Below are positions 19,737 to 21,703 of a stretch of DNA of 21,703 nucleotides, one piece after another (positions within the stretch are counted from its first letter, which is position 1; each line of letters begins with the position of its first letter). This stretch comes from Candidatus Dojkabacteria bacterium (lineage in GTDB: Bacteria; Patescibacteria; Dojkabacteria; SC72): assembly GCA_023229785.1 (NCBI GenBank), contig JALNYV010000029.1, positions 1 through 21,703 of the forward strand. The letters are read 5' to 3'. Both the position numbers and the translations under genes were made by a program. The notes under the pieces are model-generated. The model was not told the DNA's origin and ran no database searches. It saw only the letters and a program-made list of their open reading frames with translations.

Positions 19737-19910
19737 ATGGGTGAAATTAATTATGGGGATGGGTGTGGGTATGGGGATGGGTATGGGAGTGGGAATGGGT
19801 TTGGGTATGGGTATGGGAATGGGCTTGGGTATGGGAATGGGAGTGGGGATGGGAGTGGGAATGGGAGTGGGTATGGGTATGGGTGTGGGGATGGAAACGG
19901 AGAAGAGTAA
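19737..19910 (+). CDS. Gly-X dipeptide-repeat protein, 57 aa
   Basis: ATG 19737 follows AAGGA; the frame is chosen because this N-terminus (MGEINYG) matches that of a second copy at 21621 (MSEINYG). After it come 23 units of Gly-X with X = Tyr (7), Asp, Ser, Asn (4 each), Cys (2), Phe and Leu, then DGNGEE-type end and TAA. Every repeat is GGG NNT: Gly codon fixed, X codon always ending in T. The stop comes just 3 nt before the next gene's ATG. Such Gly/Tyr-rich low-complexity chains tend to be disordered and can be adhesive or phase-separating; no function is known here. Other frames over the array are also open because the repeat lacks stops. Confidence 0.72.
   Translation: MGEINYGDGCGYGDGYGSGNGFGYGYGNGLGYGNGSGDGSGNGSGYGYGCGDGNGEE
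19755..19892 (+). repeat. (GGGNNT)23 hexamer array, G-quadruplex-prone
   Basis: Twenty-three uninterrupted GGGNNT units with variation only in the two N positions. On this strand and in the mRNA, G-runs of three or more recur every six bases, satisfying the standard G3-N1-7 quadruplex rule many times over. A second array of the same type starts at 21639 and runs off the window end. Confidence 0.9.
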
Positions 19911-19913
19911 GAT

Positions 19914-21284
19914 ATGGAGATGAATATAAAAGATAAGATAGTAACAGTCTATAATACGTTTTGTGATAACTATGAGGACGTTGTTCCATACGAACATTTT
20001 TTTAAATATTTAATACCAGAAAAGAAAGAAATAATTGATAACATTAAAAGTTTGTTGTTTTCCTTAACGGTAGATGAAAACCTACTTTCATATAGTAAAT
20101 GCTTTCCGGGAAAAATTATTATCTCTATCCCTACTACTACTATTATTGATTCTTTTGGTCAAAAAGTAATGGGTAAAAAACAAGTAACAACCACCTTTGG
20201 TAGGTATATTCGCAAGTATAAGAAAATAGATGAAAAAGCTATTCCATCACACATTTTAACTGCTATCTCAAATCATGTTATAGCAACTGCAGTTGACACT
20301 GAGAAGATAATTAGTCTTGTTCAGGGAGATGAGATTGAAAATTTGTATAAGGAACATTTTGCATATAGCAGTTGTATGTCTGGGGATAGTGCAAGATATA
20401 CAAGATTGTATGCGAATAATCCAGATAAAGTTTCACTCCTTTGTTTGAGATTTGGGGATATAACAGGAAGGGCTTTGGTATGGGAGACTGAAGAAAAGGT
20501 TACTGTTGTGGATAGAATATATCCCAACAGTGGGGTGCATATAGATATGATAAGGGAATTTGCTCAAAGTCGAGGGTGGAAAATGAGGAGCCATAATGGA
20601 AGCCCGGATAATTATGGTAGCGACAAAAATATAGATGGTAAAACTTATTATGTAAAGTTGAAGAATAATACTGACTATTTTCCATATTCTGATACATTTA
20701 GATACCTAACCTCTGAATATCCATATATTATCCTTACAAATGATAGAGGTGGTCCAGATGTTATTGGGGAATTATCTCATGTGGATGGAACATATCATAC
20801 TTATGAGGAAGATTATCGTTGTAATTGTTGTGGTAATAGGGTTTGTGAGGATGACATTTGCTATAGTGAGGATGGGGATGCTTATTGTCAGTGTTGTTTT
20901 GACAAGTGTTATAGCATTTGTGATAGGTGTAATCGCACAATATATACATATGACACACCTTTAAACGAAATAAGAGGATGCAAGCATGAATATGTATGTG
21001 ACTATTGTGCTGAAAAACTACAAGTGAGGGAATGTGAACATTGTGGCGAAAAATGGGAAGAAGATAATTTAGTGATGGCAGAGGATATAAATGGTGACGA
21101 ATATTATTATTGTGTAGACTGTTACACTGATGTTTGTCAAGTATGTGCTCAACACTCCCCCCAACATACACCTACAATATTTGATGGGAGAGAAATAAGA
21201 ATTTGTCCTGATTGTCTTTTAGTTAAAAAAGTTAAAAACTCAAAAGATGCAATTGGGCAAGAATTATGCACTATGAAACCTTAA
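19914..21284 (+). CDS. Large phage protein with C-terminal multi-zinc-ribbon region
   Basis: 456 aa, the largest protein in the window. ATG 19914 lies after GGAGAAGAG. Residues about 150-265 hold a conserved phage core: YSSCMSG (151-157), TRLYANNPDKVSLLCLRFGD, GRALVW, RIYPNSG and SRGWKMRSHNGSPDNYG, TDYFPYSDTFRYL. Residues 302-434 hold many CxxC pairs (C303/C305-C306, C311, C325/C327-C328, C336/C339, C362/C365, C374/C377, C400/C403, C408/C411, C431/C434), likely four or more zinc ribbons. The core resembles a widespread unannotated phage family; the ribbons suggest nucleic-acid or protein binding. It is flanked on both sides by Gly-X genes. Confidence 0.85.
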   Translation: MEMNIKDKIVTVYNTFCDNYEDVVPYEHFFKYLIPEKKEIIDNIKSLLFSLTVDENLLSYSKCFPGKIIISIPTTTIIDSFGQKVMGKKQVTTTFGRYIRKYKKIDEKAIPSHILTAISNHVIATAVDTEKIISLVQGDEIENLYKEHFAYSSCMSGDSARYTRLYANNPDKVSLLCLRFGDITGRALVWETEEKVTVVDRIYPNSGVHIDMIREFAQSRGWKMRSHNGSPDNYGSDKNIDGKTYYVKLKNNTDYFPYSDTFRYLTSEYPYIILTNDRGGPDVIGELSHVDGTYHTYEEDYRCNCCGNRVCEDDICYSEDGDAYCQCCFDKCYSICDRCNRTIYTYDTPLNEIRGCKHEYVCDYCAEKLQVRECEHCGEKWEEDNLVMAEDINGDEYYYCVDCYTDVCQVCAQHSPQHTPTIFDGREIRICPDCLLVKKVKNSKDAIGQELCTMKP

Positions 21285-21298
21285 AGAGAAAGAATAGT

Positions 21299-21616
21299 AT
21301 GATAATTAAAAATGAGAATGAGACCACTACAGATAAATTTGTAGTTTTTAATTCAAATGGGAGACACCAATATATTATTTTTGAGGTATGTCCCAATGAT
21401 TCTCAGCAGTCATTTTCCTTTGTTGGAAAAGCATTAAGCAATTCCTCTAAGGATATTATATATACTGATAGTGTTATATATGCTACTCTTTTCTGTGACT
21501 TTCTCAATTCTAACTCAGAATATTTATGTAAGATAATGAGGTTGTATGATAGTAGAGAAATAAATGAAAAGCAAGCAATTGAAATGTTGAGGGAAATTTT
21601 TAATAAAGGAAGATAA
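21299..21616 (+). CDS. 105-aa protein, possible distant repeated-module member
   Basis: ATG 21299 is preferred; the longer frame to 21266 overlaps the preceding gene out of its frame. Residues include DKFVVFNSNGRHQYIIFEV and then IIYTDSVIYATLFCDFLNSNSEY, which echo the left-arm module (hydrophobic strand, then DA..IC.ALN-type helix), though GYF is missing. The tail (SREINEKQAIEMLREIFN) is a helical segment like short phage regulators. If related, it would be the only module copy on this strand. Low-confidence relation, good confidence in the gene. Confidence 0.7.
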   Translation: MIIKNENETTTDKFVVFNSNGRHQYIIFEVCPNDSQQSFSFVGKALSNSSKDIIYTDSVIYATLFCDFLNSNSEYLCKIMRLYDSREINEKQAIEMLREIFNKGR

Positions 21617-21620
21617 GAAA

Positions 21621-21703
21621 ATGAGTGAAATTAATTATGGGTATGGGAATGGGGGTGGGGATGGGTTTGGGTTTGGGTATGGGTATGGGTGTGGGGGTGG
21701 GGA
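21621..21703 (+). CDS. Second Gly-X dipeptide-repeat protein (partial)
   Basis: ATG 21621 follows AAAGGAAG and begins MSEINYG like the first copy, then Gly-X units with X = Tyr, Asn, Gly, Asp, Phe, Phe, Tyr, Tyr, Cys, Gly before the window ends. Again every unit is GGG NNT. The full length and end are outside. Two paralogues about 1.9 kb apart with different X order show the array changes between copies while the N-terminus is kept. Confidence 0.75.
   Translation, partial: MSEINYGYGNGGGDGFGFGYGYGCGGG

Follow-up and report, generated by a model that had tools for sequence, protein, structure and literature searches.

A hypervariable Gly-X gene and an upstream DUF6948 gene form a conserved pair in phages

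The 21,703-nt contig JALNYV010000029.1, assigned to Candidatus Dojkabacteria bacterium (assembly GCA_023229785.1) and referred to here as the window, carries two genes in which glycine codons alternate with a variable codon, X. Here, we find that this Gly-X gene is the downstream member of a conserved phage gene pair, whose upstream member encodes a protein of the DUF6948 family. In the window, the DUF6948 gene (19251-19628) is followed on the same strand by Gly-X gene 1 (19737-19910). The Gly-X genes are protein coding with one preferred reading frame, and they are hypervariable between otherwise near-identical phages. The listings from our searches of the open-licence PubMed Central (PMC) literature contain no description of the DUF6948/Gly-X module, and the pair is apparently previously undescribed. 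The features of the window that matter most are as follows.

19251-19628, plus strand: DUF6948 gene (PF22253), upstream gene of the pair, 125 aa, product predicted to be an Sm/LSm-like barrel
19654-19687, plus strand: hairpin (14-bp stem, -21.2 kcal/mol) in the gap between the DUF6948 gene and Gly-X gene 1, resembling a terminator by a loose consensus
19725-19729, plus strand: AAGGA, 7 nt ahead of the ATG of Gly-X gene 1 and likely its ribosome binding site, read directly
19737-19910, plus strand: Gly-X gene 1, 57 aa, isoelectric point (pI) 4.05, second gene of the pair, from direct reading and family evidence
19755-19892, plus strand: (GGGNNT)23 array of gene 1, encoding the Gly-X chain, read directly
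21605-21610, plus strand: AAAGGA, 10 nt ahead of the ATG of Gly-X gene 2 and likely its ribosome binding site, read directly
21621-21703, plus strand: Gly-X gene 2, leader MSEINYG, cut inside its array by the window end
21639-21698, plus strand: second array, (GGGNNT)10 counting complete units, read directly

Relatives were collected in two scans. The first searched viral contigs for (GGGNNT)8 with NN unconditioned and returned 74 low-entropy and 41 higher-entropy arrays; among the higher-entropy ones are both window arrays and some other than Gly-X. The second targeted non-GGG glycine codons with a condition on X and gave many more mixed arrays, all counts being among the matches listed; on both accounts, the X counts of its loci were not used for composition. 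Together with the window and one further contig, L001, there were at least 120 mixed Gly-X loci, or 111 after removal of nine look-alikes (L027, L032, L095, L101, L102, L111, L151, L203, and L208). When the neighbors of these loci were clustered, DUF6948 was the standout family, present at 48 of the 111 compared with 1 of 106 controls, and that single control (L023) itself has a two-letter Gly-X array and was later removed from the control set. A profile search then placed DUF6948 directly upstream in 74 of the 86 mixed loci that have at least 450 bp of upstream sequence (the window and L001 again included), compared with 0/105 controls. The DUF6948 proteins used to build the search profiles came from these Gly-X loci and related ones, an origin that favors the figure of 74 but not the control figure.

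The association also holds in the opposite direction. We sought DUF6948 relatives with no condition on Gly-X and scored an alternating-Gly array lying from 60 bp before to 600 bp after the DUF6948 stop; such an array was found in 157 of 160 loci, which comprise the best 80 of at least 581 relatives and the best 80 of 440 and are not independent, as they fall into 24 and 60 clusters at 80% identity. A stricter array detector gave 156/160, with three misses at contig ends and the fourth at L236, whose only array is short and 460 bp distant. Among host assemblies named in the records, which are mostly metagenome bins with uncertain host names, the array was present in 12 of 15 loci; L392 and L397 break off no more than 12 nt from the match, and L404 truly lacks an array. 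Type B DUF6948, one of the forms described below, is found in 115 records of Rheinheimera phages, RefSeq duplicates among them, and all nine of the other phage records fetched contain the pair (MW202898, MT192033, MT835900, MT836871, PhiPLPE, IKEMa6-1, Ymer, MW202748, and RcapNL), with arrays as short as 6 units in MT835900 and 8 in MT836871. In L071 and L076, Gly-X and DUF6948 share one open frame (L083, of that lineage, is cut), and L186 has two consecutive pairs (9147-10411) whose pre-array DNA is 96% identical while the arrays differ.

Because a (GGGNNT)n array is free of stops in all six frames by construction (codons GGG/NNT, GGN/NTG, and GNN/TGG; ANN/CCC, NNC/CCA, and NCC/CAN), its openness alone is no proof of coding, and other evidence is needed. 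Among 145 distinct arrays downstream of DUF6948, 143 have a start codon (ATG or GTG, at most 150 nt away) in the Gly-X frame, compared with 35 and 16 in the other frames, and a ribosome-site match of at least 4 bases precedes 69 arrays in the Gly-X frame, compared with 2 and 1. The Gly-X start usually overlaps the end of DUF6948, with a median spacing of -13 nt that is approximate, as the script picks the best-scoring start. By eye, leaders are alike within types (MExINSGYG-like for type A, TINFEDSQNSYG-like for type B), and the window leaders, MGEINYG for gene 1 and MSEINYG for gene 2, resemble that of type A; in a search with the leader pattern, L001 was the only viral contig that matched. 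The initial annotation had favored, over random satellite DNA, a translated low-complexity protein that is under selection and keeps its start. The pairing in both directions (157/160, and 74/86 against 0/105), the 143 of 145 starts, and the alleles described below all support that proposal, and inspection of relatives for out-of-frame arrays or lost starts, the check that it suggested, did not refute it.

The pair is easily missed because its Gly-X half is of low complexity. A protein database search with the Gly-X sequence returned 542 candidates with none at an E value of 0.001, as expected for such a sequence. Contigs often end in the array: like the window, the related contigs L242, L265, and L300 break off in it or right after it. 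The gene can also be called in the wrong frame or misnamed. In Chlorobiaceae phage CV-1-33 (L227, 3337-3582, gene25), the annotated frame reads MAMAMALAM... and the Gly-X frame MDGINYGYGDG..., and in MW202748 (L418, 1734-2048) the Gly-X gene is annotated as "lamprin."

Within the window, the rule that glycine is always GGG and X always NNT, as first annotated, holds for the arrays proper and fails at the end of gene 1. All 23 units of the first array (X = D C Y D Y S N F Y Y N L Y N S D S N S Y Y C D) and all 10 complete units of the second (X = Y N G D F F Y Y C G) are GGGNNT, and the 3' end of gene 1 departs from it with GGA AAC GGA GAA GAG TAA. Over both arrays, X is Tyr 10 times, Asp 5, Asn 5, Ser 4, Cys 3, Phe 3, Gly 2, and Leu 1. 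Tyr, Asp, Asn, and Ser thus account for 24 of 33 codons, compared with 37% expected for NNT codons at the base composition of the window (P = 3.7e-5), and the remaining nine, Cys, Phe, Gly, and Leu, make a wider set than in most relatives.

Across the family, in 4,407 units from DUF6948-linked arrays, X is Tyr in 34%, Asp in 23%, Ser in 22%, and Asn in 14%, together 93%, a figure favored by the choice of array frame on a Tyr/Asp/Asn/Ser content of at least 50%. Thr and Pro, seen at X with a first, looser detector, are a frame artifact of GGG-NNC arrays. Both the codon used for Gly and the third base of X vary from phage to phage, but inside most arrays each is close to fixed (medians of 0.97 and 0.97 over 139 arrays). 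GGC is the commonest Gly codon in DUF6948-linked arrays (3,088 of about 4,400, compared with 501 for GGG), and GGA is the main one in 7 of 157 loci; L153 keeps GGA in 48 of 49 units. That X remains 93% Tyr, Asp, Ser, and Asn while the Gly codon differs among phages points to selection on the protein. Mean diversity over 132 arrays, calculated without units that do not begin with GG, is 0.081 at the third base of Gly and 0.499, 0.312, and 0.098 at the three bases of X. Residue-changing positions are therefore four to five times as variable as synonymous ones, and variation at X is confined mostly to four of the fifteen residues available to NNY. Unit order is random-like in most arrays; 21 of 117 (look-alikes included) score lower than shuffled versions (p < 0.05), compared with about 6 expected, an excess which indicates that segment duplication contributes, and unusually long repeats occur in 26 of these 117, again compared with about 6. 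We infer selection for composition, with turnover of units clearing synonymous variants. No rate of positive selection was drawn from close pairs (78 pairs, 48 identical), in which unit misalignment and within-locus pairs are mixed in.

The clearest view of this variability comes from the Rheinheimera Barba phages, for which we compared 19 of the 115 records with Barba1A as the reference. The flanks differ from Barba1A by 0-1 bases over 620 bp upstream and 0-2 bases over 420 bp downstream, but the Gly-X gene itself occurs as six alleles. The two of 210 nt, found in 6 and 8 isolates, are a single X change apart (Asn to Tyr); two 216-nt alleles, in 2 isolates and 1, have one extra unit each; and Barba19A and Barba31A carry a largely different array of 240 and 252 nt, with two units between them. 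All lengths differ by multiples of six, and all 19 arrays are in frame, with no frameshift or stop. This bears out the expectation, raised with the first description, of hexamer-unit variation with point changes at X. Three metagenomic pairs (L254/L255, L157/L182, and L174/L220) likewise have upstream DNA that is 99-100% identical and arrays that differ, where assembly error is possible. The words "glycine" and "repeat" are absent from the main text of the Barba genome paper (PMC6715854), and passages of the Barba transcriptome paper (PMC9305737) do not name gp017 or gp018. The Barba alleles offer natural test material for the effect of the length and order of a low-complexity chain.

A targeted diversifying process had also been suggested, and the evidence does not support it. 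Diversity-generating retroelements use a reverse transcriptase and adenine-specific mutation, with AAY codons as targets, which NNY codons varied at their first two bases would resemble. No reverse transcriptase was found among the 20 window open reading frames (ORFs) scanned against Pfam, out of 88 of at least 60 aa in what is a partial genome. Nor is the mutation spectrum adenine specific: the A of GGA is kept, X is mostly restricted to four residues, and length changes by whole units.

The window DUF6948 protein matches PF22253 over residues 34-117 (E = 1.5e-20; 73.5 bits against a curated cut-off of 27) and is 45.5% identical over residues 1-123 to the DUF6948 protein of L001, which lies upstream of an MGEINYG gene. 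The family as we use it includes type A, type B, and a third type (L213), the last without a match in phage records. Type B and related proteins were assigned to DUF6948 by single-linkage BLAST and position, with the predicted fold as a further ground in the case of L183. When six of them were scanned against PF22253, three scored 19-22 bits, below the cut-off of 27, and three had no match. Weak hits of type B to an aminoglycoside acetyltransferase were taken as chance (16.5 bits against a cut-off of 270; E = 0.18). The median pI is 9.0 for type A and 7.7 for type B (80 proteins each), and type A is mostly basic. An AlphaFold2 model of the window protein has a predicted local distance difference test (pLDDT) score of 89, and in structure comparisons all of the matches listed, 50 per model, are by title Sm/LSm proteins or complexes containing them. 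DUF6948 is thus predicted to adopt an Sm/LSm-like fold. The matches also include the LSm part of TIP60, which is called pentameric in a passage of PMC10374429 and serves here as an analogy only.

Our preferred reading, to which we give a probability of roughly 0.4, is that DUF6948 would form an Sm-like ring that binds RNA or single-stranded DNA, with the acidic, Tyr-rich Gly-X protein acting as its tail in trans. Under this reading, the phage would encode ring and disordered tail as separate genes, and the two would be translationally coupled through the overlap of the Gly-X start with the DUF6948 end. The Tyr/Gly chain could provide multivalent contacts and self-association, and its Asp residues could compete with nucleic acid, in a manner similar to the Gly-rich repeats and acidic tip of Hfq. 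The presence of Asp without Lys or Arg suggests that other Gly-X proteins are acidic too, like that of the window. Selection apparently keeps the composition of the chain (Gly at alternate positions; X mostly Tyr, then Asp and Asn/Ser) far more than its order or length, and whole 6-nt units gained or lost in frame, together with some changes at X, make the gene hypervariable. The module perhaps acts beside replication and recombination functions, and a role with RNA is our best guess for the Sm-like protein. If the Sm-like reading is true, Sm/Hfq biology would extend to many phages, with the tail supplied in trans. The wider proposal that the pair is a ribonucleoprotein or single-stranded DNA-protein system across phages of many bacterial groups, in which Gly-X would be a tunable condensate former or a nucleic-acid-release tail during infection, with composition and length, not sequence, under selection and with a strict hexamer framework that would let length and order change fast with neither loss of frame nor a stop, we regard as rather unlikely.

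Known systems offer partial parallels. Eukaryotic SmD1, SmD3, and SmB carry basic Gly-Arg tails in cis on an Sm core; the pair would resemble them in joining a predicted Sm core with a Gly-X dipeptide-repeat tail, and differs in that X is Tyr, Asp, Asn, or Ser instead of Arg and in that the tail is acidic and in trans. The silk fibroin heavy chain is likewise a Gly-X dipeptide repeat with Tyr and Ser, though its X is mainly Ala and it is a secreted structural protein with no Sm partner. The Sm/LSm-like protein 3by7, from an uncultured organism and, we presume, of phage origin, has no significant sequence-profile match to DUF6948. According to passages of PMC11617691, the acidic tip of Escherichia coli Hfq aids RNA release, and in Acinetobacter Hfq a Gly-rich repeat tail (GGFGGQ) and an acidic tip affect RNA binding, with repeat number mattering. 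Acinetobacter Hfq thus shares with the pair an Sm-type core (predicted here) and a disordered Gly-rich repeat chain with acidic residues. Unlike the Hfq tail, which is in cis, the Gly-X tail is a separate gene with strict alternation and hypervariable order, and the DUF6948 core has no sequence-profile link to Hfq.

Several observations weigh against our preferred reading. Comparison of DUF6948 with Sm families by hhalign gave a probability of at most 2.1% in nine comparisons, and there was no Sm match in PDB sequences and no LSM or Hfq match in Pfam. Twelve of the 86 Gly-X loci have no DUF6948 inside the limits used, and Gly-X is also fused to other domains (one with the motif IDGVPTI...WHG.LTGSC in L039 and L154, a different N-terminal domain in L171). 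In the window itself, the ORF preceding Gly-X gene 2 has no Pfam match, and the 108-nt gap before gene 1, with its strong hairpin, is atypical of the family.

Some of these points also favor a real pairing in which DUF6948 is an SH3/Sm-type barrel binding protein and Gly-X an adhesive or scaffold polymer, for example of a phage compartment, with no RNA chaperone role. A similar fold by itself gives no function, the sequence link to RNA-binding Sm families is missing, and Gly-X is also joined to other domains. We consider this a realistic possibility, against which stand the uniformly Sm/LSm titles of the structure matches and the mostly basic character of type A DUF6948 beside an acidic chain. 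It is improbable, in our view, that Gly-X is a counter-defense or decoy protein whose order and length shift because host factors recognize it. Six alleles in 19 phages of one host strain with near-identical flanks speak for it, as do multiple Gly-X genes or pairs per phage (L049 and L186) and the two copies in the window. However, a narrow composition with random-like order in most arrays is expected if only composition matters, neither DUF6948 nor the window Gly-X protein matched a PADLOC model, and we know of no host sensor of Gly-X.

Two further explanations were considered. The arrays might act as DNA or RNA, for example as G-quadruplexes, with the reading frame incidental, since (GGGNNT)n fits by eye a three-tetrad pattern and is open in every frame. 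This is largely refuted by the codon-framework and frame results, and we hold it to be very improbable: GGC arrays have no G runs, starts and ribosome sites favor a single frame, and L071 and L076 each encode DUF6948 and the array in frame as a single ORF. Least credible of all is a neutral hexamer microsatellite beside a conserved gene. Single-X (GGGNNT)n satellites are indeed numerous in viral contigs, as the 74 low-entropy arrays of the first scan (against 41 of higher entropy) illustrate, but none of the 105 control loci from the same scans has DUF6948. A microsatellite would be frame independent with a single unit, whereas these arrays have mixed units, one preferred frame, and only in-frame alleles in the Barba phages, along with four favored amino acids at X whatever the Gly codon and an excess of residue-changing over synonymous variation.

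The surroundings of the pair vary. In four of seven annotated phage genomes, DNA-processing genes lie nearby: ERF and Gp157 in CV-1-33, an exodeoxyribonuclease and DNA polymerase in Barba, recE in PhiPLPE, and xerD and a Holliday junction resolvasome gene in MW202898. RcapNL has a CI-like repressor, MW202748 has regulators and a relE-type gene, and in Ymer the pair sits between tail genes that are on the other strand. At unannotated loci, ERF-, YqaJ-, RecT-, and Sak4-like proteins were recognized nearby, by eye only. No match to DUF6948 was found in plasmids.

Gly-X arrays also occur in other arrangements. In nine contigs (L039, L059, L116, L120, L154, L189, L228, L229, and L401), the array is followed in the same ORF by the domain with the IDGVPTI and WHG.LTGSC motifs, this ORF being only partly visible in L228, L229, and L401; the members tested gave nothing above the curated cut-offs of Pfam and NCBIfam, and none matched PHROGs. 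The domain joined to the array in L142 and L171 presumably resembles DUF7666. L049 has a row of four Gly-X genes starting with MIDGRGSG, three of which end in GWDEVIS with the stop overlapping the next start, and L050, on the same contig, has one more; interiors differ across the row.

Two other genes near the pair in the window are as follows.

18918-19238: protein with a Kyano_Gp96 domain (PF23790, by Pfam), directly upstream of DUF6948
19914-21284: 456-aa Cys-rich protein

The former was considered as the protein of 3by7 and rejected, with no sequence match. The latter lies, with another gene at 21266-21616, inside the stretch (19737-21703) first annotated as a Gly-X pair. It has no Pfam match and no relatives in the viral contigs; weak relatives occur in 10 phage records, and parts of it are 26-34% identical to proteins of Cellulophaga phage phi38:1, Thermus phage TSP4, and very large uncultured phages. 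The window DNA itself has no match in phage records. On the minus strand, the window encodes a pair of DNA methyltransferases, a protein resembling nucleoside deoxyribosyltransferases, and a SpoU methylase (4195-4743, 5582-6298, 6998-7459, and 10667-11125), a set in keeping with a phage genome fragment.
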